From an uncultured Methylococcaceae bacterium (lineage in GTDB: Bacteria > Pseudomonadota > Gammaproteobacteria > Methylococcales > Methylomonadaceae): a DNA stretch of 34,240 nucleotides. How positions within the stretch are numbered: the first letter of the stretch is position 1; each line of letters opens with the position of its first letter. The position numbers and the translations under genes are program-made. Shown here piece after piece: positions 4,591-20,100 of this stretch. Location of the stretch: assembly GCA_903945605.1 (NCBI GenBank), contig CAJAWH010000096.1:1-34240 (forward strand), in the 5' to 3' direction. Under the pieces are notes generated by a model. The model did no database searches. It was not told the DNA's origin and saw nothing but the letters and a program-made list of their open reading frames with translations.

Positions 4591-7551
4591 ATGCCTGAAT
4601 CGCGCCAGAAATTAAAAGTACCAGAGTTGCTTGTTTTCATTAGAATTTCAGCACTATGGTTTATCTTAGCAGGATGCTTCCGTATCGCCTACTACGCAGG
4701 CCAACAGTCTTTACCTTTATTATCTGGCGTTGCTTGTACTTTTCAAGCAGTAGGCATTATCGTCTGCCTGATTGTTTGCTTAGCCTACGCTTGGATGCGG
4801 GATGTTAAATCAACCATAAGCCGCCTTTTGCGTAGTTACCGCTTCGACATATTCGCTTTCGCAATTATTGGAGTTTGGTCAAACTATTTGGCATCGCCTT
4901 GGCTGTTAAAAGTACAGCCCGTCATTGATGGGATAGACCCTCGGTGGATTCCTACCATTTTGATAGCCCTGTTTTTGATGCTTCTATCGTCCATATTTAG
5001 GGGATACTGGATACTGAAAAAACCGCCACCCTCCCAATTCCACTTTTTTGGTGACGATGCAATTAAGACCGAAAATGAAAATACCCTGCAAAATAATGAA
5101 CTGGCGAGGAACTTCGCTGAGACGGTATTGGCAAGTAGAGCGCACTCAGGGCTCGTGTTTGGCATTGATGCCCCCTGGGGTATAGGCAAAACCAGCTTTG
5201 TCAATCTTGCGGAACGCTATTGGAAGAAGGCTGGGGGAGATTCGGTAATCGTTTTTCGTTTTGAACCTTTACGGTACGCTGCCGAACCCGATCTATCGGA
5301 GCGTTTTTTACGCGACCTTACAGCTGCTATTCAACAGCAGGTTTATGCACCAGAGTTCCTACCAGCCGCTTCGCGTTATTCGCGGATGATTAAGAGCATC
5401 TCGCTTTTTGGCTTCAGGCTGTCTATTGAACCACTGAATGAAACCATTGATGAATTAATGGAAGATATTGACGATGTCCTTAAAAGTATTCGCAGGCGCA
5501 TCATCGTCGTTATAGATGATCTAGATCGACTTGAACCTAAAACGGTCAACAACGTATTATTTGCTGTTAGACGCACGTTCAACCTATCGCAAGCAACATA
5601 TATCCTATGCTACGACACTGAAAATCTAGTGAAGGGAAAAGACGATGGCAGCAATGCACGTGAGTTTCTTGAGAAGTTTGTAACTGTGAAATTAAGCCTA
5701 TTTGTTGACAGTGCCATGCTCCGAGACTTCTTGAAAACGGACTGGCGAAAAAATGAGCATTCCATTCCGACCATTCCAATAGAAAACCTGAACAAGCTCG
5801 AGGCCGTTTTGAGCAAACTAGCTGAGATATTGGACTGGGATTTTGCGCCGAATTATTTCCCATTAATTGGCGATATGCGTAAACTGAAGCGTTTTGTCAA
5901 TGCAGTTCTTATGATGCAGATAGAGAAATCAGACTTAAGTAAAACAGATTTCAATGTGCATGACCTCGTCAACCTGATGCTTTTGCATCTTAACTATCCA
6001 GGAGTGTTTCGACATATCTATGCAGAAGAAACAGAAGGAAGGCAAGGTATATTTTCAGCAAAACGGAGTATTGAAGCGGGAACAGCAACATTCTTCAACA
6101 ATGAGAAATTTGAGCAAGTATTGAAAGAATACGATGCCACCGCAAGCTTCTTGTTAAAACAGTTATTCGACGTGGAAGTGCTAAATCTTGGGAAAATCGA
6201 TCTAGCTAATGAAAGCCTCCTAAGTTCCCGTGCCTGCTTCAACATGGCGCCGTTCCGGAATCTAGAAAAGTACCTGAAGCTAATCGTCAGATTAGCTAAG
6301 CCAGAACAGCGAGATACATTCAAGTTTTACCAAGATGCCGTCAATCGCGTTAAGAATGGCAATTCAGTTGATGCCATTTTAAAAGAAGTAGAGTTCAACC
6401 TGCAAAAAGGTGGATCAGCACACGAAAAATTTTGGCAGGTTTTGGTCAACCAGTCATACGAACTTACAAAAGATCCAGCCAAAGATGCTATCAATACCCT
6501 CGTGAAATATTTACCGCGTTATTCTTCAATTCCCGACTCCGGCGAATATATATCTTTGAGAAAAAGCACGATATTATCCTTAATCTACCTGTTGGATCGT
6601 GCTGGGTGGGGCCGCACCCAAGGACGTAGATTAGAAAATACCAAAGAAAATATACTCGAAATTGCTGAGCGTATCTACGGTGAAGGTAATTTCAAAAATG
6701 AAGGATTGATCCGTCGTTTGGCATCGGCGAAACGAGGGACACTTGGCTGGCACGATTTAATGCAATTCAGATTGCATTGTTCGGCTGACCGACTAGGACA
6801 AACACGCAATCTCCAAAGTGCGTTGATCGTTCATGATGACATAAATGCCCAGACGGATGGCATGGTTTCCACTCTCGCGTTAAAAGGTATGCGAACAATT
6901 TCCCAATCGGTGTTTAAACTGTTTAAAGAGACCTATATTGAACGTAATATTAATTTTTTTACCGAGGTTGATAACACACCTGACCATGAATTTTATGGAG
7001 ATTCCGAACAGTGGCTTAAAGCGCAAAGTTTACAAGTTGAAGATGGCAATCGGCTGGAAGATCAATTGTTAGCCACCCGTTCGGCTATAAAAAGCTTTGT
7101 TATATACCAGCTTGCCAATCGAGAAGATGGTCACGGTTCAGGTGTGGGAGTCGGTGTATATGATGAGTCGGGTACCGGTAATTTATCGGGCATTAGCTCT
7201 ATAATGAACGACTATATCTTTGATTTGTGCTTTAACCCATTGGTTGACGAGGACAACATCTATCATTTTACTGACCACTGCTTGCGTAACCTAAGCAGCG
7301 GTTTTTTTGGTGCTGATCAGGACGTGAAAGGGTATGCCGCCACAGGGAAGAGTTTAAGTACTGGACTTATTCCAGAAAAACTGCATGAATACTGGAAAAA
7401 TCACGGCCCATATATTAAGGGGAGAAATCTGCAAAATAAGGAAATGCCTGTTTTTACGTTTAATTATGTAGCAACATATACCGAACATTTGCCAAAAGTA
7501 TTTGAAGTGCTGGACAAAATGACAGCAGCTCCCCCTAAAAACAACGAATGA
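4591..7551 (+). CDS. membrane KAP-family P-loop NTPase
   Basis: A 986-residue protein. Four hydrophobic segments (about residues 13-36, 43-68, 85-106, 118-142) put the N-terminus in the inner membrane. A KAP-type P-loop domain follows: Walker A APWGIGKTS (194-202, lysine 200) and Walker B VVIDDLDRL (aspartates 309, 310 and 312). KAP NTPases are STAND-related P-loop ATPases of mostly unknown role; some occur in anti-phage systems. The C-terminal ~500 residues are not recognised. ATG 4591 has GGGAG about 9 bases upstream. Base composition looks more AT-rich than the flanking housekeeping genes, and a broken HTH gene follows, so transfer is likely. A defence role is possible but no partner nuclease or toxin is present in the window. 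Confidence 0.85.
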   Translation: MPESRQKLKVPELLVFIRISALWFILAGCFRIAYYAGQQSLPLLSGVACTFQAVGIIVCLIVCLAYAWMRDVKSTISRLLRSYRFDIFAFAIIGVWSNYLASPWLLKVQPVIDGIDPRWIPTILIALFLMLLSSIFRGYWILKKPPPSQFHFFGDDAIKTENENTLQNNELARNFAETVLASRAHSGLVFGIDAPWGIGKTSFVNLAERYWKKAGGDSVIVFRFEPLRYAAEPDLSERFLRDLTAAIQQQVYAPEFLPAASRYSRMIKSISLFGFRLSIEPLNETIDELMEDIDDVLKSIRRRIIVVIDDLDRLEPKTVNNVLFAVRRTFNLSQATYILCYDTENLVKGKDDGSNAREFLEKFVTVKLSLFVDSAMLRDFLKTDWRKNEHSIPTIPIENLNKLEAVLSKLAEILDWDFAPNYFPLIGDMRKLKRFVNAVLMMQIEKSDLSKTDFNVHDLVNLMLLHLNYPGVFRHIYAEETEGRQGIFSAKRSIEAGTATFFNNEKFEQVLKEYDATASFLLKQLFDVEVLNLGKIDLANESLLSSRACFNMAPFRNLEKYLKLIVRLAKPEQRDTFKFYQDAVNRVKNGNSVDAILKEVEFNLQKGGSAHEKFWQVLVNQSYELTKDPAKDAINTLVKYLPRYSSIPDSGEYISLRKSTILSLIYLLDRAGWGRTQGRRLENTKENILEIAERIYGEGNFKNEGLIRRLASAKRGTLGWHDLMQFRLHCSADRLGQTRNLQSALIVHDDINAQTDGMVSTLALKGMRTISQSVFKLFKETYIERNINFFTEVDNTPDHEFYGDSEQWLKAQSLQVEDGNRLEDQLLATRSAIKSFVIYQLANREDGHGSGVGVGVYDESGTGNLSGISSIMNDYIFDLCFNPLVDEDNIYHFTDHCLRNLSSGFFGADQDVKGYAATGKSLSTGLIPEKLHEYWKNHGPYIKGRNLQNKEMPVFTFNYVATYTEHLPKVFEVLDKMTAAPPKNNE

Positions 7552-7855: not shown

Positions 7856-9742
7856 TTATAACTCAATCCTAATCCCAATCTCCACCACTTGATCAACCGG
7901 AATTTTAAAGAATTCAATGGCACTGGATGAGTTGTGGATCAGGAAGCGGAATAAAGCCCGTCGCCAATTGGGCATGGCACTTTTGCGCTTGAACGACACT
8001 TTTTCGCTGCCGATAAAAAACGATACAAATTTGGTGTCTATCCCCAAGCCTTCTTCAACCGCCAGCTTTAAAGCCCTACGGACATCTTGGGTTTGTTGGA
8101 AGCCGTAATAAAGTTTGACGCGGAAAAATTTGCGTTGATGCCCAAAGGTGCGGATTTTTACCCGGCGCGCCTCTTCCACATAAGGTTCATCCGTGGTCAC
8201 CACGGTAAGCACAATGATTTGCTCGTGCAAGACATGGTTGTGGCGCAAATTGTACAACAGCACTTGCGGTACGCCGTGGACGTGGCGGGTCAGGTAAATG
8301 GCGGTGCCTTTGACAGTGCACAATTCATGCTCTTGCAGTTGTTCTTCGAGGTCTTCAAACAATACCCTGCGTTCCGCCATATATTCTGACAGCATGGCAC
8401 GGCCTTTAATCCATGTGGTCATCACCAGGTATAAAACCAGTCCCACCGCTAAGGGCAACCAACCGCCGGACGGTATCTTTAGGCAGTTGGAAGATAAAAA
8501 CACCAAGTCGATGGACAAGAAAAAGGCCAAAAACAATATGCTGGCGGAGGTTTTCCATTGCCACAATTCCCGAATCACCAAAAATGCCAACAGCGTAGTG
8601 GTGACCATAGTGCCGGTTACGGCAATGCCGTAAGCCGCCGCCAAGTTAGTGGAGGATTTGAAGCTAAGCACTAAGATGAACACCGCAAACATCAGCATCC
8701 AATTGACGGCGGGGACATACACCTGGCCTTTTTCTTCGCCGGATGTGTGCAAGATGGGCATACGCGGGCTGTAGCCAAGCTGGATGGCTTGTCGGCTGAT
8801 GGAAAAGCAACCGGAAATCACCGCTTGTGAGGCAATGATGGTTGCCAAGGTCGATAAGATCAGCAGCGGATAGAGCGCCCAATTAGGGGCCAACAAATAA
8901 AAGGGGTTTTGGATGGCATCCGGGTGCTGCAACAGCAATGCACCTTGACCAAAGTAATTGCATAACAGGGCCGGAAAGACAAAGCTGAACCAAGCCAGCC
9001 GGATGGGCTTAAGGCCAAAATGGCCCATGTCGGCGTATAAGGCTTCCGCGCCGGTCATCACCAACACCACTGCACCCATGATCATAAAGCTGTGCCAACC
9101 CATGGTATGCAGCAGGTTAAGCGCGTAATGCGGGCTGATGGCCAATAATACGGTGGGTTCGTCAATAATGTTGATAATGCCTAGCACCGCCAGCACTGCA
9201 AACCAGAAACACATGACGGGGGCAAACATTTTACCGATGGCCCCTGTCCCTTTGGCCTGAATAATGAACAACACGCACAGGGCGGCGATAGTGCCGGGCA
9301 AAATGTAGTCATGTAAGGTAGGGGTGATGATCTCCAGCCCTTCCACGGCACTTAACACCGAAATGGCAGGGGTGATCATGCTGTCGCCATAAAACAACAC
9401 TGTGCCTATCAGACCAACGGTAAGCACATACTGTTTACGTCGGGGGTTATTGTTGGCCCCAAAAAGCGTCAGGGCCATTAACGCCATTATGCCGCCTTCA
9501 CCTTTATTGTCCGCACGCATGATGAAAATGGCATATTTAACGGTGACGACCAGCATCAACGACCAGAACACTAACGACAAAACCCCTAGCACATGCTCCT
9601 GGTCAATGGGCACGCCAGCAAGGAACACCTCTTTCAGTGCATATAAGGGGCTTGTGCCAATATCGCCAAAAACCACGCCAATAGCACTTAATGCCAGGCC
9701 CATAGTTTGTTTTGTCGTATGATTTTGATGGATTGCAGACAT
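7856..9742 (-). CDS. kup: low-affinity potassium transporter Kup
   Basis: A 628-residue KUP/HAK/KT family K+:H+ symporter, the normal length (E. coli Kup is about 620). The N-terminal family signature ALSAIGVVFGDIGTSPLYAL is at about residues 17-36. It is followed by about 12 membrane segments and a hydrophilic cytoplasmic C-terminal domain of about 170 residues (after WIKGRAMLSEYMAERR). ATG 9742 is chosen; the ribosome binding site is weak. The gene stands alone on the minus strand. A TATAAT sequence lies at 9864-9869 (minus) about 120 bases upstream, but no good -35 box matches it. No K+-responsive regulator is adjacent. Confidence 0.96.
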   Translation of the reverse strand: MSAIHQNHTTKQTMGLALSAIGVVFGDIGTSPLYALKEVFLAGVPIDQEHVLGVLSLVFWSLMLVVTVKYAIFIMRADNKGEGGIMALMALTLFGANNNPRRKQYVLTVGLIGTVLFYGDSMITPAISVLSAVEGLEIITPTLHDYILPGTIAALCVLFIIQAKGTGAIGKMFAPVMCFWFAVLAVLGIINIIDEPTVLLAISPHYALNLLHTMGWHSFMIMGAVVLVMTGAEALYADMGHFGLKPIRLAWFSFVFPALLCNYFGQGALLLQHPDAIQNPFYLLAPNWALYPLLILSTLATIIASQAVISGCFSISRQAIQLGYSPRMPILHTSGEEKGQVYVPAVNWMLMFAVFILVLSFKSSTNLAAAYGIAVTGTMVTTTLLAFLVIRELWQWKTSASILFLAFFLSIDLVFLSSNCLKIPSGGWLPLAVGLVLYLVMTTWIKGRAMLSEYMAERRVLFEDLEEQLQEHELCTVKGTAIYLTRHVHGVPQVLLYNLRHNHVLHEQIIVLTVVTTDEPYVEEARRVKIRTFGHQRKFFRVKLYYGFQQTQDVRRALKLAVEEGLGIDTKFVSFFIGSEKVSFKRKSAMPNWRRALFRFLIHNSSSAIEFFKIPVDQVVEIGIRIEL

Positions 9743-9865
9743 TTTAAGGTCGGGGTTAAGAAAAAACGGAGCGGGTTAATGGTTTGGCGGCTGCCGGGGC
9801 GGGACTATGACCGGCCTCTTGTTGGCAGTTTTCTTGGTGCAAGACCGCCCAGTAATTTTTTATAT

Positions 9866-9883
9866 TATAACCTGATGTTACGC
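9866..9883 (-). repeat. dispersed 18-nt motif, copy 1
   Basis: Minus-strand reading is GCGTAACATCAGGTTATA. It differs at one base from the copy at 23508-23525 and resembles the copy at 27069-27086. It lies 66 bases from a REP palindrome and overlaps the possible kup -10 box. Confidence 0.5.
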
Positions 9884-9910
9884 GACAGGTGTTGTCTGTG
9901 CGGCAAGCTG

Positions 9911-9944
9911 TAAAAAGCTCAAGCCAGTTTTTTGGGCTGGCTTG
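9911..9944 (-). terminator. candidate terminator of the bufABC operon
   Basis: Read on the minus strand, CAAGCCAG (9944-9937) pairs with CTGGCTTG (9927-9920) around a 9-base A-rich loop and is followed by AGCTTTTTAC. It is an 8-bp stem with a short U-run, placed about 150 bases downstream of the bufC stop, beyond the two REP elements. Confidence 0.5.
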
Positions 9945-9948
9945 GGGA

Positions 9949-9974
9949 TTCCCTTCGACTTCGCTCAGGGAACG
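9949..9974 (+). repeat. REP-like palindrome R1
   Basis: Core CCCTTCGACTTCGCTCAGGG, an imperfect palindrome of the family CCCTTCGRCTACGCTCAGGG. It pairs in inverted orientation with R2, giving a BIME-like arrangement just downstream of bufC. Confidence 0.75.
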
Positions 9975-10030
9975 TACCGTTTTTGCAGAGGAAAAGCTTC
10001 TGGCATCGGAAGGGCCAAGTAAAACCGCAC

Positions 10031-10058
10031 CCGTTGGCTGAGCGTAGCCGAAGCCCTG
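10031..10058 (-). repeat. REP-like palindrome R2
   Basis: Minus-strand core is GGGCTTCGGCTACGCTCAGC, the inverted partner of R1 with 56 bases between them. Confidence 0.75.
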
Positions 10059-10095
10059 CCAACATCCGCTTTTTGCAATTAGCCATAACCAAACG

Positions 10096-10875
10096 CTACC
10101 CGCCCTCGACCACAATGATATGTTTTGCCAGCATGTTTTGCAGGATTTGCAAGCCACCCGCGTGGATAATGGCGGGATTGGGATGACCTGATTCTGCCGC
10201 CACTTGTTGCAGGCAATCCGCCACGTTAATGGCTGTTTGTTGCTGGATGATTGCCAGCAAACGGTAAGTCATGGGGGTGATTTCGATAAACGCCACGTCA
10301 TCACTGACATTACGGTGCACCACCAAAAAAGTGGGCTGTGCCGGTGCTGTGTTAGGGATAAAATCAGGGGCAATTTTATGGACGGGGTATTGGTAGGCCA
10401 AAGGCCAAGCCAGCGGTGATAAGCTGATGGTTTGCCGGGCCAGATCGCTGCCGTCAACATTGTTGATGGTTAAGCTGTCTTGGCTGATCGCCAAGGCCAT
10501 TTCCACCCATTCGTAATGTGCCAGCTCCACCAAAAAGGGCAGATCATCGGGATGCTTGCGTTCGTTCTGCAAGTAATCAATAAATTCTTCGGGAATTTCC
10601 GAAAAATACGGAGTTTGGCAGCGATGCTGGGCAAAAAAACCATTAACCAGTGCCAGCCATTGCGGCCCGTCCAGCAGGCTGAACAACACCGGAAAATTGC
10701 TGCTGAGAAAGCCATTGATATTATTGAACAGCAGTTCACGGTAAATGGCGACACGGGGCAGCGGGGCATCCGCCGGTGGCGGGAAGCGGTCTGGGGAGCG
10801 CAGATAATCGGCAAATTCGCGCTGTTTGGCGGCAAAATCCACCCGCCCGCCACGACTAGGCGGACTGTTGTGCAT
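10096..10875 (-). CDS. bufC: DUF2063/HvfC-type RiPP partner protein
   Basis: A 259-residue protein with an N-terminal DUF2063 domain (FAAKQREFADYLRSP at about residues 14-28, then YRELLFNNINGFLSSNFPVL) and a C-terminal domain typical of BufC/HvfC/MbnC-like partners. Such proteins form a complex with a DUF692 enzyme and help present the precursor peptide. ATG 10875 is chosen although the frame stays open to 11199: the upstream part overlaps bufB in another frame and looks nothing like the family. The start lies inside bufB (20-base overlap), so translation is probably coupled. It is the last gene of the operon and is followed by REP elements. Role is inferred from family and context; sequence similarity alone gives only DUF2063. 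Confidence 0.88.
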   Translation of the reverse strand: MHNSPPSRGGRVDFAAKQREFADYLRSPDRFPPPADAPLPRVAIYRELLFNNINGFLSSNFPVLFSLLDGPQWLALVNGFFAQHRCQTPYFSEIPEEFIDYLQNERKHPDDLPFLVELAHYEWVEMALAISQDSLTINNVDGSDLARQTISLSPLAWPLAYQYPVHKIAPDFIPNTAPAQPTFLVVHRNVSDDVAFIEITPMTYRLLAIIQQQTAINVADCLQQVAAESGHPNPAIIHAGGLQILQNMLAKHIIVVEGG

Positions 10876-11710
10876 GTTGTGCGCCCCAGGCACTTTGGAT
10901 GTCTTTGATAGTGGCCACTTCGCGCATGAGTTCGGCAAGTGGCGGAATATTAAAATCCCTTTCCAGTAAGGTGGGGAACACGCCAAACAGCTCGTAAGCT
11001 TTGCCCAGCAACTTCCAAACCGGATCAATAATTTCTGCACCGTGGGTGTCGACCAAGAAATCATCGGCTTCAACATAATGGCCCGCCACGTGCGCGTAGC
11101 TGATGCGTTGCCCGGGCATGGCGCGCAGAAAGGCCTCGGCATCGTAGCGGTGGTTGATGCTGTTGACGTAGATGTTATTGATGTCGAGCAGAATGTCACA
11201 ATCGGCTTCAGCTACGACGGCATTAAAAAATTCTATTTCGCTCATCTCCTGCCCTAATGCGGCATAGTAAGAGGCATTTTCAACGGCGATGCGTTGCCCC
11301 AATATGTCTTGCACGCGCCTGATGCGGGCGGCGACATGGCTAACGGCTTCGGCGGTGAAGGGAATGGGCAATAAATCGTACAGATGGCCATTTTTGCTGC
11401 AATAGCTCAGATGTTCGCTATACAACTTGATTTGATGGCTATGCATGAATTGCTTGACCGACAACACTAATTGCTCGTCGAGCGGGTCGGTGCTGCCTAA
11501 GGACAAGGACAGCCCGTGGCAGATGACAGCGTGCCGTTCGGTGACTGCACGGAATTGTTTGCCCAGTTTGCCGCCGATGGTTATCCAGTTTTCTGGTGCC
11601 ACTTCATAAAAGCCAACATCCAGCGGCGTATCGATAACGTGTGACAGAAAAGACCGGCGCAAGCCCAAACCAGCACCTTGCACCAAGTTTTGGGTGGTGT
11701 CCATAAGCAT
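10856..11710 (-). CDS. bufB: DUF692/MNIO-family multinuclear iron oxidase
   Basis: A 284-residue TIM-barrel protein of the DUF692 (MbnB/TglH/HvfB) family. These enzymes use a two- or three-iron centre to oxidise cysteine residues of a peptide substrate, for example to thio-oxazole or oxazolone-type groups. Likely metal-binding residues are visible: EN 40-41, H65, EH 99-100, EN 144-145, D176/N178, H207, H211 and D221/H223. The start GAGLGLRRSF (12-21) and the block DILLDINNIYVNS (172-184) are family signatures. The first ATG (11710) is used; ATG 11704 is a possible alternative. It follows bufA by 82 bases and overlaps bufC. With bufA it almost certainly modifies the BufA cysteines; the exact product is inference. 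Confidence 0.92.
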   Translation of the reverse strand: MLMDTTQNLVQGAGLGLRRSFLSHVIDTPLDVGFYEVAPENWITIGGKLGKQFRAVTERHAVICHGLSLSLGSTDPLDEQLVLSVKQFMHSHQIKLYSEHLSYCSKNGHLYDLLPIPFTAEAVSHVAARIRRVQDILGQRIAVENASYYAALGQEMSEIEFFNAVVAEADCDILLDINNIYVNSINHRYDAEAFLRAMPGQRISYAHVAGHYVEADDFLVDTHGAEIIDPVWKLLGKAYELFGVFPTLLERDFNIPPLAELMREVATIKDIQSAWGAQHAQQSA

Positions 11711-11743
11711 ACCTATAGCGGGTAATGGGGCACAAGCAAGATA

Positions 11744-11765
11744 AGGGGCATAAGGCTATGCCCCT
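11744..11765 (-). promoter_or_regulatory. hairpin between bufA and bufB
   Basis: AGGGGCATA (11744-11752) and TATGCCCCT (11757-11765) form a perfect 9-bp GC-rich stem with a 4-base loop in the 82-bp bufA-bufB gap. On the minus strand it is followed by TTATCTTGCTTG, a poor T-run. It may act as a partial terminator or mRNA-end stabiliser, so that the precursor is made in excess over the enzymes. Confidence 0.55.
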
Positions 11766-11792
11766 CTTCCACACATGCGGACAGCTGATCGA

Positions 11793-12413
11793 TTAATGTT
11801 TGGCTGGTGCTGCTGGAGTGGTTGCTGGTGCAGGTGTCACATTGGCTGCACAGCCGCCTTCTTTGCCTTTCATCATTTCGGTGCAACCTTGCATGTTGTC
11901 GCCACAGCCTTTCATAGCCGCGCCACAAGCACCTTCTTTGGCTTTGGCATCAGGGCAGCTTTTCATGTGTTCGCCACATTGGTTGGCGCATTTGCCTTCT
12001 GGCATTTTACCGGCCCCACAGGCGCCTTCTTTACCTTTCATGGATTCACCTTTCATCATTTCACCGCAAGCGCCTTCCTTACCTTTCATCATGGCACCGC
12101 AGGCTGATTCCATGCCTTTTTTCATTTTGTCGCCATCCATCATATCGCCACATTTGCCTTCAGTGGTTTTTTGGGCAGCGGTTTTTTTGTTGTTGCCAGC
12201 ACAAGCGCCCTCAGCCGCTTTGGGTGTACCCATGCCCATGGCTGCACCACAAGCCATTTCAGCGGCTTTGGTAGCTTCTGCAACTTGCATATAGCCAGAA
12301 GACAATTCGGTCATGCCAAAAGGATTTTCTGCATGGGCAGCGGTGGCGGCAACTGAAGAAATAAATGCCATGCCCATGGCGGCGGCTAAAGGAGATTTGT
12401 TGGTTGTTTTCAT
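11793..12413 (-). CDS. bufA: bufferin/HvfA-like secreted RiPP precursor, Cys- and Met-rich
   Basis: A 206-residue protein. Residues 1-28 are a Sec signal peptide (MKTTNKSPLAAAMGMAF..., cleavage after AAHA). The mature part has 13 Cys (55, 71, 88, 105, 116, 132, 142, 146, 153, 163, 170, 177, 188) and about 20 Met. Nine Cys sit in an E-x-x-C-G/A motif, mostly EGACG with one EGKCG. In known bufferins the EGKCG cysteines become copper-binding thio-oxazoles. Units such as MMKGKEGACG recur. The C-terminus is a short Ala/Pro/Thr tail ending in KH. ATG 12413 has GAGG 7 bases upstream. The next genes are bufB and bufC. The most likely role is copper buffering in the periplasm; the family assignment is strong, while the chemistry on Ala-variant motifs is inference. 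Confidence 0.88.
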   Translation of the reverse strand: MKTTNKSPLAAAMGMAFISSVAATAAHAENPFGMTELSSGYMQVAEATKAAEMACGAAMGMGTPKAAEGACAGNNKKTAAQKTTEGKCGDMMDGDKMKKGMESACGAMMKGKEGACGEMMKGESMKGKEGACGAGKMPEGKCANQCGEHMKSCPDAKAKEGACGAAMKGCGDNMQGCTEMMKGKEGGCAANVTPAPATTPAAPAKH

Positions 12414-12466
12414 GTTGGCCTCGTAAATTGAGTGTAAGTAATGGGAAATGCTTTGCTTAACGATCT

Positions 12467-12495
12467 ATTATAAATGCAAATTGCCTTAATAATAA
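12467..12495 (-). promoter_or_regulatory. promoter of the bufABC operon
   Basis: Minus-strand reading: -35 TTATTA (12490-12495), 17-base spacer and a perfect -10 TATAAT (12467-12472). The predicted start near 12460 leaves a leader of about 47 bases before bufA. The -35 box is weak, which fits a promoter needing an activator; no copper-responsive operator was recognised. Confidence 0.5.
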
Positions 12496-12570
12496 GGGTT
12501 TGTTGTTGTCAGGCACGGCTTGCACTGTGTTTGGCTGGTGTGGTGTCCGGTGTTGTTGTCCCCATGCGGG

Positions 12571-13209
12571 TCAAGCCGTTGCTGTTTTGGCATCGAACTC
12601 GCAGCAATCAGCCAGCAAACAACCTTGGCAACGCGGCTTTCTGGCTATACAAGTGTAACGCCCATGCAGAATAAGTAAATGATGGGCTTCTTTTTTGTGT
12701 CGTTTGGGCACCCATTTGTCCAATTTTTTTTCCACTTCCAGCACATTTTTGCCCGGTGCAATGCCAGTGCGGTTGGCAACGCGGAAAATATGCGTGTCCA
12801 CAGCAATGGTGGGCTGCCCAAACGCGGTGTTTAGGATAACATTAGCAGTTTTTCTGCCCACCCCCGCCAGTGCCTCCAGCTCTTGACGGGTGGATGGCAC
12901 CTGCCCGTCATGCCGTTCGATCAGCTGTTGGCTAAGGAGGATAAGGTTGCTGGCCTTGTTGTTGAACAGGCCAATGGTTTTGATGTGTTGTTTTAGGTTG
13001 TCCACGCCTAAAGCCAGCAAACTGGCCGGGGTGTTGGCAACTGGAAACAGTTTGGCGGTAGCCTTGTTGACCCCCTTATCGGTGGCTTGTGCCGATAACA
13101 CCACTGCAACCAATAATTCAAATGCCGTTGTGTAATGCAGCTCTGTACTGGGATTAGGGTTGGCTGCCGCCAAACGGTCAAAAATTTCCAGACGTTTTTG
13201 TGCGTTCAT
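12571..13209 (-). CDS. nth: endonuclease III (DNA glycosylase/AP lyase)
   Basis: A 212-residue HhH-GPD DNA glycosylase that removes oxidised pyrimidines in base-excision repair. The helix-hairpin-helix LAGVGRKTAN carries the catalytic lysine 120, and aspartate 138 is in AVDTHIFR; both match the E. coli numbering. The [4Fe-4S] cluster ligands are complete at Cys 187, 194, 197 and 203 (C-x6-C-x2-C-x5-C). The length equals E. coli Nth. It is the last gene of a possible minus-strand run behind the ABC and GH5 genes, 51 bases after the GH5 stop. It is unrelated in function to either neighbour. Confidence 0.97.
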   Translation of the reverse strand: MNAQKRLEIFDRLAAANPNPSTELHYTTAFELLVAVVLSAQATDKGVNKATAKLFPVANTPASLLALGVDNLKQHIKTIGLFNNKASNLILLSQQLIERHDGQVPSTRQELEALAGVGRKTANVILNTAFGQPTIAVDTHIFRVANRTGIAPGKNVLEVEKKLDKWVPKRHKKEAHHLLILHGRYTCIARKPRCQGCLLADCCEFDAKTATA

Positions 13210-13260: not shown

Positions 13261-14436
13261 TTAATGCTGGTTGCCGCGCAAAATGTCTTCTTGCAATCCG
13301 GCAAACTGGTCAAGATCATTTAAATTGGGAATCCAGCCGCGCTTGACACAATCCCGATAACACCAAGCGGGCGTGGTTTCGGTTTTGTAAGTCCAAAAGA
13401 ACCAGCCCAAATATTTTTCAAAAGCCAGCAATTCGGCGGCGGCATAAGCACGATAAGCGACAGACAGCTGGAATGCATCCATCTCTTGTTGGTCATGGTT
13501 AAAAGGGTCCTGTTGCCAGTGTGCGAGCATCCTTAAATCCAGCCCCAAGCTCCATTCCCCACAATACACCGGCAAGGCCAATCCGCTGATAATGGCATCG
13601 GCTTCTTGTTTCCAGTCTTGTATGGTTTTTTGGATATGGCCAAAAATATCCAAATTAAGGTCTGCTTCCACAAAACATTGGTAACGGTGAATATCCAGCA
13701 CGACATTTTGAAATTCTGGCGCGGTCAAAAAACCCAGGTATTCTTGATAAGTGCGGAAACCATCATGGAACACCACGGACACGGCTTCTGGACGGCAATG
13801 TTTGCGGATACGGTGATAAGCGGCGGTGGTGTAATGTTTTAATAGGTCTGTGGCAATGTCCCAGCGCGGTTCGTTCAGCACTTCTATGCCGTGCAAGGCG
13901 GGGTAAGCGGCATAGCGTTCCGCCAAGCGCTCCAGCACGTCAAGCGAATGGTTTATATACGCTTCGTTAGTGTGCCATTCACAGACATCTTTAATGCCGC
14001 CGTTATCAAAACCGTTTTGGCAACCAGGCGCGGCATGTAAATCCAACACGATGAGCAAACCGCATTCGGTGGCCCACTGAAAAGCGCGGTCAAGCACCGC
14101 CACACCACCTGGCACATAAGGATAACGGTTGTTGCCGTAACTGCTGTGGTAAGGGTAATCGGCACCAAACAGCCAATGGCCCACGGGGATGCGCACCGCG
14201 TTGATACCTGCTTTAGCTAACCAAGCAAAATCTTCGCGGGTGATAAAACTGTCCCAATGGGAGGTCAATCGTGAAGCCGCTTGTGAACCCAATTCCACGC
14301 AAAAAGACGTTTCATCTTGGGCTGCCAAGCCGGTAAAAAGACTAGGGGTGATCCATTTCTCCAATACCAGCCAACCGCCTAGGTTGACACCACGGATTTT
14401 TTTGCGCGGATAAGATGTGGCAATAAAATCCGTCAC
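13261..14436 (-). CDS. GH5 family glycoside hydrolase, exo-beta-1,3-glucanase-like
   Basis: A 391-residue (beta/alpha)8 enzyme of clan GH-A. The opening RGVNLGGWLVLEKWITPSLF (15-34) is characteristic of the GH5 branch containing fungal exo-beta-1,3-glucanases. The acid/base is E189 in EVLNEP and the nucleophile is E294 in YCGEWS; HAAPG (134-138) is also conserved. There is no signal peptide, so it is predicted to be cytoplasmic, unlike most relatives. The start is GTG 14436, with GAAGGA about 7 bases upstream; it overlaps the ABC gene stop in a GTGA, so translation is coupled. The substrate is probably a beta-1,3/1,6-linked glucoside or a glycolipid; this is not resolved by sequence. Confidence 0.88.
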   Translation of the reverse strand: MTDFIATSYPRKKIRGVNLGGWLVLEKWITPSLFTGLAAQDETSFCVELGSQAASRLTSHWDSFITREDFAWLAKAGINAVRIPVGHWLFGADYPYHSSYGNNRYPYVPGGVAVLDRAFQWATECGLLIVLDLHAAPGCQNGFDNGGIKDVCEWHTNEAYINHSLDVLERLAERYAAYPALHGIEVLNEPRWDIATDLLKHYTTAAYHRIRKHCRPEAVSVVFHDGFRTYQEYLGFLTAPEFQNVVLDIHRYQCFVEADLNLDIFGHIQKTIQDWKQEADAIISGLALPVYCGEWSLGLDLRMLAHWQQDPFNHDQQEMDAFQLSVAYRAYAAAELLAFEKYLGWFFWTYKTETTPAWCYRDCVKRGWIPNLNDLDQFAGLQEDILRGNQH

Positions 14437-16121
14437 AATAATATCCTTCGCGAATGGAAAGCTTCCGCCGAGGGCTGATTGGTGATGCTCAACAACGTTG
14501 CCTCGGGCAATTGCATGCAGATCAACCGGAACATGTCTGCTTCAGCTTCTGGATTAAGGGAATCAAACGCTTCTTGCAATAATATCCATTTGGGACGGTA
14601 CAACAACAGGCGTACCAAGCCCAACCGTTGCTGGTCACTGCGTGGCAAAGCTTTATCCCATACTTCAACCACATCCAATTGGCTTAGCAGGTCATCCAAG
14701 CCCGCCAGCCGGAGTGCCGCCACAATCGCCTCCTCGCCAAAATGGCTGCTGGCACTCGGGTAACAAATGGCTTCGCGTAGGTTGTCGGTGGGCAAATAAG
14801 GGCGTGGTGGCATAAAAAACATCGGGTCATCATCGGGCAAGATAATGCGCCCATGCCCCCAAGGCCATAATCCGGCAATCGCCTTGAACAATTTGGCACC
14901 TAGGGTTGCATCACCGTGGATAAGCACCCGCTCACCCAAACGGATTTCGGTGTCAATGCAGGCAATGATGGCATCACCATTAAATTTGCTGATGCATAGT
15001 TTTTCAAAGGTCAGTATTGGCAATTCGTCCTTTTCCAAGACTATACGGTTGGGGTCGGGCCGGACAATTTCTTGCTCCAAATCTTCCAAAGCTTTGACCA
15101 GCCCCAAAACCCGCTCGACCGAAGCCCGCCACTCGGCAACTTTCGCCATATTGTCCACCGGCCAGGACAGGGCTGAAACGGTTTGCTGGAAAGATTGCAC
15201 TGCTTGCATCAGGGCACCCAAGGTAATGCTGCCCAAGATATAACGGGGTGCTGTCACCAAAACCGGAAAGGCCATCGACAACACCGAATAACCGGAGGTG
15301 AACATCATGATGCTCAGCCAAGCTTGGGTCTGTTGCGACCAAATGCCGACAATTGCGGCAAACGAGCGATGCAAACGGGATTGCTCGGTGGTTTCACCGT
15401 GGATGAGTGCTATTGATTGGGAGTTTTCCAGCGCCGACACTAAATTGAAGCGAAAATTGGCTTCGGCGGTTTGTTTGGCTTCGGTGGCGACGGTTAATGA
15501 CCGGCCTATCCACCAGCCCAATGAGGATGCACAACCGGCATAAATAAACGCCAGCCAGACCAAATGCCCGTGTATGGGAATCTGGAACAGACCCAAGTCC
15601 AGCACCACCACACCGGAGAGCGTCCATAAAATTTTAGTGAAACTGACCAGCAATAACACGCTAAAAAGCAGGGAATGGCAAAGATCAATCGCCGATTCAG
15701 TGGCAATACGGATGTCTTCAGCAATGCGCCCGTCGGGGTTGTCGTGCTCACCTTCAATATGGGTGACCAGATAATGACGGCCATTGACCATCCAACGGCC
15801 AATAAGGCGTTCGGTCAGCCAAGCCCGCCAATCCACCTGCAAGCTACGTTTAATTTTTAAATGATTGGCGGTGACGGCAATGTTGGCGATTAAGATCAGT
15901 ACAATCAGGCCAATTTGCTTGAACAACCCCCCCATTGACCGCTGGTCCAAAGCATTGAACAAGTCGGCGCTCCATTCCGTGATAAACACGGCAATGGCAA
16001 TTTGCATCACAGTAAGCAAAACCAGTAGCAGTGCGCGAAACTTGGCCGCTGATTTTTCATCAAGCCAAAACGAACCAGCCAATCGTAAAAATTGTATAAA
16101 AAAGCTGTTGCTGTCCAACAT
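14433..16121 (-). CDS. SbmA/YddA-like ABC transporter with degenerate ATPase domain
   Basis: A 562-residue fusion of an ABC_membrane_2/SbmA-BacA-like membrane domain (about six segments, residues 25-330) and an ABC-type C-terminal domain (about 370-562). The nucleotide-binding motifs are all damaged. The Walker A region is GDATLGAKLF (403-412), lacking GKS/T. The Q-loop Gln is Pro 439. The signature is LPRSDQ (492-497) instead of LSGGQ-like. The Walker B Asp is Gln 516 (ILLQE). The H-loop His is Asn 548. The fold is kept, as shown by AIAGLWPWG and QQRL. It probably does not hydrolyse ATP and may work on proton motive force as SbmA does. ATG 16121 has AGG upstream. It is coupled to the GH5 gene. 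Confidence 0.82.
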   Translation of the reverse strand: MLDSNSFFIQFLRLAGSFWLDEKSAAKFRALLLVLLTVMQIAIAVFITEWSADLFNALDQRSMGGLFKQIGLIVLILIANIAVTANHLKIKRSLQVDWRAWLTERLIGRWMVNGRHYLVTHIEGEHDNPDGRIAEDIRIATESAIDLCHSLLFSVLLLVSFTKILWTLSGVVVLDLGLFQIPIHGHLVWLAFIYAGCASSLGWWIGRSLTVATEAKQTAEANFRFNLVSALENSQSIALIHGETTEQSRLHRSFAAIVGIWSQQTQAWLSIMMFTSGYSVLSMAFPVLVTAPRYILGSITLGALMQAVQSFQQTVSALSWPVDNMAKVAEWRASVERVLGLVKALEDLEQEIVRPDPNRIVLEKDELPILTFEKLCISKFNGDAIIACIDTEIRLGERVLIHGDATLGAKLFKAIAGLWPWGHGRIILPDDDPMFFMPPRPYLPTDNLREAICYPSASSHFGEEAIVAALRLAGLDDLLSQLDVVEVWDKALPRSDQQRLGLVRLLLYRPKWILLQEAFDSLNPEAEADMFRLICMQLPEATLLSITNQPSAEAFHSRRILL

Positions 16122-17088: not shown

Positions 17089-17113
17089 CCCCCTTCGGCT
17101 ACGCTCAGGGAAC
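17089..17113 (+). repeat. REP-like palindrome R3
   Basis: Core CCCTTCGGCTACGCTCAGGG, in the 114-bp gap between the convergent carbonic anhydrase and giant repeat genes. It is the best match of the five to the shared consensus. Confidence 0.8.
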
Positions 17114-17164: not shown

Positions 17165-20100
17165 TTACAACACCTGCACCATAGTATTGCCAATACCCAA
17201 CAGATGCAATTGGCTTTCGGTATTGTTGGCAAAAAATAGCTGATGGACTACTGCGCCATTGCTTGCCACAATAGCAATTTCCGTCCCCGTGCTGCCATAA
17301 GCCTTTTCTGTGATGGAATCTCCGGCCAGACTAATGTGCGACAAATTTAAGTCGGTGATTTGACGGTTTTCGGTCAATGTTGCCAGCAATGATGTGGGCA
17401 TAATTTCTATAAGGCTTGTTTGTATAGCACCCAAAGCCAAACCATTGAGGTTGGCGGCAGTGTCTTGCACCGACAACAAATAAGGTGATTGGATAATATT
17501 TAGCACCCCTACGTCGCTGCTGGCCTGTGCGGCAGTCACTGTTACAGTGGGCGTACCAGCATTGGTCAGTTTTATGTTGGCGATTTGCCCAGCAATTCCC
17601 TCCAGCCCATCGATTTTGGCCTCTAAATTTGCCGCCGAGTCGCCAACGGTGGCAAATGTTTCAGGATTGCCCTTGCTATCAGTCATTTTAGGTGCGAGCG
17701 CCAATACATCAGCAATGTTGATTTGCCAAGTAAAGAGATTGTTGCCGGAGCTGTCTTGTACTGACAGCAGTTGCTTGCCCATGGCCGCCATGGTGTCTAG
17801 GCTACTGGACATGCTCCAGCCAGAGTCAACTATTCGGATGGGTATGGTCAAGCCTTCTTGAACAAAAACTGTGGCATCAAAGATGCCTAAAGTCACTGAT
17901 TTGCCATCCGAGTGCAGATTGCCGAATTGCCCGAACGAGATGCCGTTGGGCAAAGTAAAAGCACCCAGCGCATATCCCAAGGACAGCAGCTTGGCTTGGT
18001 TGGCATTGATGTGTGCGGCTGTGTCAGCAACAGTCACCAACAGCTTGTCGCCTAGCGTGGCAAGCGCGGTGATATTGCTTGCCACGTTCGCCGCTGTGTC
18101 GGTCACCTGGATATTGCCATTGTCGATTTGTGGCCCCAGTGCCAGTAGCTGGGTGGCTTTGGTTGCTACATTTGCGGCACTGTCGCTGATGGTCACGGAT
18201 AGCTCATTGCCAAGTTTTGCCAGTGCTTTCGCATTGGCGGCTATATGTGCCGCCGTATCGGTGATATGGATTCCGCCCGCAACGATTTTTGTACCTAAGG
18301 CGCGTAACTCGCGGATGTGGGCGGCTACGTCCGCCGCCGTGTCGGAGACATTATTGAAGGTGTAGGGGATGCTTGCACTATCGGTCATCTTAGGTGCAAG
18401 TGCCAGCAAGTCCGCCACGCTGATTTGCCAATAAAAAGGATTTTGGCCGGAGCTGTCCTGTAAAGACAGCAGTTGCGTACCCATAGCCGCCAATGCGTCC
18501 AAATTGTTGGCTATATTGCCATTAGAATCGACTACATGGATGGGGGCCGCCAACCCTTCCTTGATAAAAGCGATGGCATGTGCAATATCTAAGGTCACTG
18601 ATTTGCCGTCAGTATGCAGGTTAGTCAGTAATATGCCGTCGGGCAGCTTGAAGCCTGCCAGAGTGCTACCCAAAGACAGCAGCTTGGCTTGGTTGGCGTT
18701 GATTTGGGTAGCTGTGTCGTTAACCGTGACTGACAACTCGGTGCCTAATGTGACCAGTGCCGCTGAGTTGGCGGCAATGTTTGCCGCCGTGTCCGTCACT
18801 TGGACACCTCCCCTGCTGATGCGTGCGCCCAAAGCGAGCAGTTGTGCTGCGTTGGTGGCCACATTCGCGGCAGTGTCATTGATGGTAACCGAGAGATCAG
18901 CACCCAATATGGCCAGCGCCGCCGAGTTGGCGATAACCTGCGCTGCCGTGTCGGTGATATGGATGCCGCCCGTAGCAATTTGCAAACCTAGCGCGAACAA
19001 CTGGGCAGCATGGGCGGCAATATTGGTGGTTGAGTCCGTGATGTTGCTGAAGGTGTCAGGATGCCCCCAGTAGTCGGTCAGCTTGGGGGCTAGTGCCAGC
19101 ACGTCCGCCGCGCTGATTTGCCATTGGAAAGGCTGGTAGCCGGAGATATCTTGGACAGACAGCAGTTGGTCGCCTATAGCTGCCAGCGCGTCCAGGTTAT
19201 TGGACAGGACATCACCATAATCAACCACATGAATGGGCGCGACCAACCCTTCTTTGATGAAGGTGATAGCATCAGCGATATTCAATGCCACTGACTTGCC
19301 ATCCGCATTCAGGTGGCTAAACGATGCCCCATCAGGCAGTTTGAAGCTAGCTAGCGCACTGCCTAACGACAGTAGCTTGGCTTGGTGGGCGTTAATTTGC
19401 GCCGCTGTGTCAGTGACCGCCACTGAAACTGCAGCGCCCAGTGTGACCAACGCCGCCGCATTGGCGGCAATATTGGCGGCGGTATCAGTGATGTGGATAG
19501 CACCAGCAGCGATGAGTGCGCCCAAGGTGAGCAACTCAGCAGCATGGTTAGCCACATTTGCCGAAGAGTCATTGATTGTTATAGATAACTTGTTGCCCAG
19601 CGAGGCCAATGCCGCAGTGTTGGCGGCAATATGCGCCGCAGTATCAGTGATATGAATGCCACCGGTGGCGATTTGCGAACCCAAGGTCAGTAACTGCGCC
19701 GCGTTGCCAGCTACGTTAGATGCTGAGTCAATGATATCACTAAATATTTCTGGTTTGCCGGATTTGTCGGTCATCTTGGCAGCCAGTGCCAGCACGTCGG
19801 CGACACTGATTTGCCAAAAGAACGGGGAATATCCTGAGAGGTCTTGCACCGACAGTAATTGAGCGCCTATGGCTGCCAGCGCATCGAGGTGGTTGGAAAT
19901 GTTCCAGCTAGAATCGCCCACATGGATAGGGGCAACCAGCCCTGCCTTGACAAAGGCAAGAGCATGGACGGTATCCAAGGTCACCGATTCGCCATCTGAA
20001 AGCAGGTTGGAGAATGATGTGCCATCTGGCAAAACCAGACTGCTTAGCGCATTGCCCAAAGCCAGCAGCCTATTTTGGTTGGCGTTGATATTTGCGGCAT

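Follow-up and report, generated by a model that had tools for sequence, protein, structure and literature searches.

The window analysed here is a 34,240-nucleotide stretch of contig CAJAWH010000096.1 from an uncultured Methylococcaceae bacterium (assembly GCA_903945605.1). At positions 10096-12413 its minus strand carries three genes, which encode a signal-peptide precursor, an MNIO (DUF692) enzyme and a DUF2063 partner. An original prediction made from the letters of the window had proposed this trio, and all three genes are found where it placed them, with Pfam support for the enzyme and the partner. We consider it probable that the operon makes a periplasmic copper-binding RiPP (ribosomally synthesized and post-translationally modified peptide) of the HvfABC (captophorin) kind, one that would carry thiooxazoles together with predicted unmodified M-x-x-C cysteines. 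The features of the locus are as follows.

12467..12472, minus strand: TATAAT, a possible -10 element, from sequence only and with statistical support absent
11793..12413, minus strand: RiPP precursor (HvfA-like), 206 residues with 13 Cys and 23 Met, from the open reading frame (ORF) and alignment with relatives
12330..12413, minus strand: Sec signal peptide, residues 1-28 (AHA↓E), probably the leader too; cleavage at 28/29 was judged by eye, and the leader role follows oxazolin/bufferin work (PMC13419390)
12279..12326, minus strand: conserved NPFGMTELSSGYMQVA segment after the signal peptide, a possible recognition segment, from alignment A2
11850..12260, minus strand: Cys/Met-rich core, residues 52-188, with nine [E/D]-x-x-C-[G/A] sites and four others
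11850..11999, minus strand: C-terminal module, about residues 139-188, with the M-x-x-C cysteines 153, 170 and 177 plus Cys146; its pattern occurs in 38 of 79 relatives
11743..11766, minus strand: stem-loop between the precursor and MNIO genes, from hairpin folding and recurrence in relatives
10856..11710, minus strand: MNIO (DUF692) RiPP maturase, HvfB type, from PF05114, NF003818 and PDB 3bww; alternative ATG at 11704
10096..10875, minus strand: HvfC-type DUF2063 partner with an NGO1945 C-terminal domain, from NF050145 and PDB 3dee

The enzyme and its partner are of the HvfB and HvfC types

The MNIO and DUF2063 genes overlap by 20 bp. The enzyme matches PF05114 at 350 bits and passes the NCBIfam HvfB model NF003818 (435 bits; cut-off 360), while the partner matches PF09836 (85.5 bits) and NGO1945_C (107.5 bits) and passes the HvfC model NF050145 (306 bits; cut-off 142). 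Two other equivalog models are failed by the enzyme, BufB NF050167 (274 bits against a cut-off of 310) and MbnB TIGR04159 of methanobactin (53 bits against 325). It aligns with PDB 3bww (E 2.5e-71), the common MNIO motifs including HGLSLSLG, LVDTHG and LLERDFN, and the partner aligns with PDB 3dee (E 5e-13); both of these proteins have been named as members of such clusters (PMC12668002). In MNIOs that act on Lys-Cys precursors, two Arg and one Phe are conserved (PMC12668002). These class-marker residues, RR and DF, are present in the window enzyme (GLRRS, ERDF) and in 69 of the 69 relatives with both sites readable among 92 loci examined, the remaining 23 loci, which include the precursor loci without an adjacent MNIO, being unreadable by the motif pattern.

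By these models the operon is HvfABC-type and its enzymes are an ordinary HvfB and HvfC. The curated models and the class-marker residues thus bear out the proposal of an HvfABC-type copper RiPP; the name bufferin, in its strict sense, is not supported, since the precursor has no DUF2282 or BufA match and the BufB model stays below its cut-off. A grouping of the enzyme with non-RiPP DUF692 proteins, the outcome that the original prediction had named as refuting it, was addressed through the curated models alone, and the best of these is HvfB.

The precursor and the drift of its motif

The precursor ORF is not due to chance, because 196 stretches encode a relative; 80 of these were kept and 79 could be read (L075 could not). 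Ten of the 80 loci are titled only "uncultured proteobacterium", and the names of the others we take to be Methylococcales. The predicted size and composition (206 residues, 13 Cys, about 20 Met) hold, with 23 Met in total and 20 in the 178 residues past AHA↓E. Four copies of strict E-G-x-C-G and seven of E-G-x-C are found in the window precursor, and P31, F32, E36, G40, Y41, M42 and Q43 are invariant in 37 of 37 long precursors (alignment A2).

No Pfam or tried NCBIfam model, DUF2282 and BufA included, matches the window precursor at E<=10, and PF03860 (DUF326, Csp family) is likewise without a match. These misses reflect divergence and not the lack of a model, because the HvfA model NF050137 scores two EGKCG precursors that belong to the order but lie outside the host's family (L031, 93.9 bits; L026, 58.6 bits) and is passed by a Methylobacter tundripaludum relative (L102, 24 bits; cut-off 19.5). 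With the HvfA equivalog NF050188 (cut-off 95), the Methylovulum miyakonense precursor (L039) scores no more than 21.9 bits, and the BufA2 model matches one precursor (L127). Pfam matches of single A1 precursors (six families with one member each at E<=10, the best being DUF1388 at E 0.00094) were taken as composition matches.

At the 378 E-G-x-C sites of the 79 relatives, the residue before Cys is Ala in 251, Lys in 65, Ser in 46 and another in 16. When seven precursors of the order's other families (L024, L026-L031) are read in the same way, Lys stands at 36 of 37 such positions. Therefore the drift from Lys to Ala or Ser (EGKCG to mostly EG[A/S]CG) appears to belong to this lineage, and the precursor is a lineage-specific variant of the HvfA-like kind. 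Four loci have another small precursor-like gene next to the main one, of 95-114 aa and with 2 Cys (L044 5615-5902, L048 4500-4793, L099 5453-5755 and L105 4648-4992).

Two cysteine contexts in one chain

The cysteines of the long precursors fall in two contexts. In the 37 long precursors of A2, nine Cys columns give 310 cases in total: the -3 residue is E or D in all but one of them (309), and the +1 residue is G or A without exception. M occupies -3 at Cys153 (36/36), Cys170 (37/37) and Cys177 (37/37), and G or A occupies -3 at Cys146. After Cys153, 27 of 36 precursors have P, D or E (Pro in the window), six have A and three have T, S or N. Gly follows Cys170 in 36 of 37, and 34 of 37 have G, S, A or T after Cys177. 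Across all 79 relatives, 733 Cys lie past residue 30, of which 583 have E/D and 111 have M at -3 and 678 have G/A at +1.

The characterised FonBC pair still worked when Ala replaced Lys and when the opening residue of the motif was varied in several ways, and it left Cys before Pro or charged residues unprocessed (PMC12668002). Because such +1 residues block FonBC, we infer that Cys153 stays unmodified in most members. At Cys170 and Cys177 the +1 residue would permit modification, and only the -3 context differs.

These contexts also bear on a possible, though rather doubtful, alternative, in which this is an ordinary HvfABC operon with all 13 cysteines modified and the drift (EGACG, M-x-x-C) has no functional meaning. 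Such a reading is consistent with the tolerance of FonBC at several positions, including the single modification of a Cys-Tyr test peptide, with the unchanged class markers of the enzyme and with the Gly after Cys170. However, the M at -3 of Cys153, 170 and 177 is without exception in the long class, and Cys153 is followed mostly by the Pro or charged residues at which FonBC was blocked.

Proposed mechanism and the points against it

Trios homologous to this one bind copper and bear 5-thiooxazoles, the latter tentatively in one case (PMC12668002, PMC13419390, PMC12538549), and from these characterised homologues we infer copper buffering here. In the mechanism that we propose, the Sec signal peptide would probably also guide the precursor to the HvfB-HvfC pair, and HvfB would oxidise the [E/D]-x-x-C-[G/A] cysteines, nine of the thirteen, to 5-thiooxazoles. 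Sec would then export the peptide, which would remain largely unfolded and buffer copper in the periplasm; the predicted precursor structure, disordered with a pLDDT (model confidence) of 43.9, agrees with this. The M-x-x-C cysteines, and Cys153 in particular, are expected to escape modification and might serve as thiol/thioether ligands or form disulphides. Copper handling is central to methanotrophs because their particulate methane monooxygenase (pMMO) is a copper enzyme.

Several points weigh against a copper-binding, HvfABC-like product. Both HvfA models, NF050188 and NF050137 (KCGExKCG domain), are failed by the window precursor, and most of its E-G-x-C sites lack the Lys of EGKCG. The RR and DF markers are weak evidence of specificity, because FonB with the RR and F residues changed to Ala still formed the thiooxazole (PMC12668002). 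The tolerance of FonBC is known from a two-repeat test peptide, and since the Cys-Tyr peptide was modified once, the +1 rules are not strict (PMC12668002). The structure model of the precursor is of such low confidence that it says nothing on metal sites. No copper gene was found among the scanned neighbours with Pfam and NCBIfam.

A natural trigger other than copper, whether another metal or redox stress, seems improbable to us: the gig bufferin operons are induced by gold, and other stresses are discussed, but the characterised members considered here bind copper.

Precursor length and the C-terminal module

The precursor had been called unusually long and the missing DoxX neighbour a difference from typical cases. 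EGKCG-class precursors range from 31 to 506 residues, and DoxX occurs in various combinations and is thus optional (Antoine et al., PMC12452194). The length of 206 residues therefore falls within the published range, and the long form is shared by 38 of 79 relatives. The absence of DoxX was confirmed (none adjacent among the scanned neighbours, and no PF07681 match in the host genome assembly), yet it does not set the operon apart.

By pattern, the C-terminal module is present in 38 of the 79 relatives (166-229 aa) and absent from 41 (126-276 aa; one runs off its contig). Of the 79, 35 have 12 or 13 Cys and another 35 have 6. On a quick tree of 69 enzymes (the window and 68 of the 79), with stars on just 10 of its 65 inner branches, the state of the module changes at least 10 times, which suggests that the module was repeatedly gained and lost; some of the losses could be artefacts of short-read assembly, in which repeats may collapse. 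One and the same enzyme sequence accompanies a 13-Cys precursor in L049 and a 6-Cys precursor in L112. This natural pair, together with the two cysteine contexts, makes site selectivity directly testable.

A stem-loop separates precursor and enzyme genes

The single terminator-like hairpin of the original prediction exists at 11743-11766, between the precursor and the enzyme and not at the end of the operon. Four of the eight bases after its stem are T. Folding of the whole window spacer is not significant (z -1.34, with 19 of 200 shuffles as good); the hairpin is supported by its recurrence in relatives. From 66 precursor-enzyme spacers (the window and 65 others), two longer than 200 nt (L062, L089) were left out, and in 64 of the remaining 64 the best 36-nt hairpin is stronger than that of every one of its 10 shuffles; the medians are -18.3 kcal/mol for the spacers and -7.9 for the shuffles. 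The 64 stems have 53 different 5' arms, so that pairing is kept under changing sequence, although this diversity is not an independent covariation test because the stems were chosen for pairing. An intrinsic terminator was rejected for most relatives, since just 12 of 64 have at least five T in the eight bases past the stem. A probable role of the stem-loop is to keep the precursor transcript more abundant than that of the enzyme.

Energies computed without shuffles extend the comparison. Spacer hairpins reach -13.9, -14.5 and -23.0 kcal/mol in plasmid-borne relatives, Acinetobacter, Moraxella and Thiothrix, and -12.7 to -24.8 kcal/mol in five more loci of the genus or family. Other families contribute seven loci whose spacers measure 27-47 nt; five of these give -0.7 to -5.5 kcal/mol and two give -9.8 and -11.5. 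Rfam has no match in window 9700-12700 at E<=1.

As for the one promoter claimed earlier, the TATAAT is present, but the promoter scan missed that site and its total of 2 promoter-like sites is not above the 2.8 in shuffles. Some 8-mers are common to up to 24 of the 79 upstream regions. The last 90 nt upstream beats its 10 shuffles for hairpins in 26 of 79, and a stretch further up does so in 7 of 79.

Distribution in Methylococcales

The host is a Methylovulum-like methanotroph whose genus-mates include Methylovulum miyakonense (L039) and M. psychrotolerans (L052). Its assembly (175 contigs, 99.94% complete) contains the AMO/pMMO family, one MNIO match and one precursor match, and has no DUF326 match. 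Since there is no second MNIO, the methanobactin enzyme is absent from this genome. A second MNIO with 57-58% identity is found in three genus-mates (G008, G016, G009), and some of them may therefore carry two such clusters.

The order-wide counts concern the enzyme and not the precursor. At E<=0.001 the HvfB model has a match in 197 of the order's 201 genomes (in 180 of the 182 good ones), and 183 are over its cut-off; the AMO family is found in 166 of 201. Four genomes have no HvfB match, and since three of these (G038, G159, G207) carry the AMO family, the operon is not strictly tied to pMMO. This spread, and the absence of DUF326 and of a second MNIO from the host, would suit a peptide whose main task is to store copper for pMMO or deliver it there, and not to act as a detoxification buffer. 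We regard that role as unlikely, because a saturated presence is not a correlation, most of the HvfB-less genomes still carry the AMO family, and roughly half of the Pseudomonadota reference genomes have clusters of this kind.

The precursor lies directly upstream of the MNIO in 65 of the 79 relatives, and in 12 the MNIO and partner are not beside it. True orphan precursors were rejected for these 12 loci, each genome holding one MNIO elsewhere (12/12). The precursor motif pattern was not found within ~1.2-1.5 kb on either side of the distant MNIO in the 12 split genomes. In one of them (L114) the distant MNIO follows mnmE (by sequence) and precedes a DUF2063-like gene, and in the two loci checked a gene for an SLT_2 lytic transglycosylase stands before the split precursor. 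On the enzyme tree there is a single change of the split state. A precursor that works unmodified, as a Met/Cys-rich metallothionein-like protein, with the enzymes acting on another target, would fit both the separation in these 12 loci and the failure of the HvfA models; it is very improbable given the MNIO kept in all 12 split genomes and the adjacency conserved in the 65. Three split loci (L106, L110, L111) have strong hairpins followed by T-runs downstream of the precursor, like classical terminators.

Comparison with characterised systems

HvfABC/oxazolin, whose product was revised to 5-thiooxazole, has in common with the window operon the gene order, the MNIO and partner classes and a signal-peptide precursor with E-G-x-C (PMC12668002, PMC13419390). 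In contrast, the window precursor fails NF050188 and NF050137, has Ala or Gly for Lys at most E-G-x-C sites, is Met-rich with an extra M-x-x-C module, and has no DoxX. The fontiphorin system FonABC and the captophorins share the RR and DF markers and the minimal three-gene cluster (PMC12668002), but FonA has EGKCG repeats with seven modified sites, whereas the window precursor has mixed motifs and a second cysteine context. The bulbicupramide system MmrABC of Microbulbifer is likewise conserved across its taxon and pairs an MNIO with DUF2063 (PMC12538549); its host is not a methanotroph, and its EGKCG cassettes have five to eight Cys. Bufferins (BufABCD; Buf1 DUF2282, Buf2) are also Sec-exported copper RiPPs made with an MNIO and DUF2063, but the window precursor has no DUF2282 or BufA2 match, its MNIO is below the BufB cut-off and DoxX is absent.

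Csp1, the copper storage protein of Methylosinus, is an exported Cys-rich copper binder with 13 Cys. The window precursor is similar as a putative exported Cys-rich copper binder of a methanotroph, also with 13 Cys; it differs in having no DUF326 match and no confident predicted fold, the model at pLDDT 43.9 speaking neither for nor against a Csp-type four-helix bundle.

To our knowledge, copper management in methanotrophs without methanobactin is not settled. We found no paper on this operon in Methylococcales in the open-access literature, among the matches listed (titles and abstract starts). A copper-RiPP operon with its enzyme in nearly every examined genome of the order, and with a precursor missed by the tried public models, is a concrete target. 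A bolder proposal, which we hold to be decidedly speculative and unlikely to be right in full, is a near-universal Methylococcales captophorin branch. It would combine thiooxazole and unmodified M-x-x-C thiol/thioether copper sites in one chain, gain and lose its module by recombination between repeats, and hold exchangeable copper in the periplasm, as a reserve for methane monooxygenase, in methanotrophs lacking both the methanobactin enzyme and Csp, as this genome does.

Other genes of the window

A Kup potassium transporter gene flanks the operon on one side and an endonuclease III gene on the other. On the minus strand, a GH5-like glycosidase gene lies beside an SbmA/BacA-like ABC transporter gene (13261-14436 and 14433-16121). 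On the plus strand, 4591-7551 encodes a 986-aa KAP P-loop NTPase (PF07693) with PADLOC matches to PifA and QatA, a possible phage-defence gene. The 1973-aa protein encoded at 17165-23086 (minus strand) has many ITDTAANIAANAAALA-type repeats and is probably a large surface or secreted repeat protein; its Pfam matches are weak only (DUF5036, 34.5 bits; DUF6989, 17.2). Finally, CCCTTCGACTTCGCTCAGGG occurs in two copies, at 9951-9970 and 17091-17110 (one with 2 mismatches), where none is expected by chance, and has the look of an intergenic repeat.

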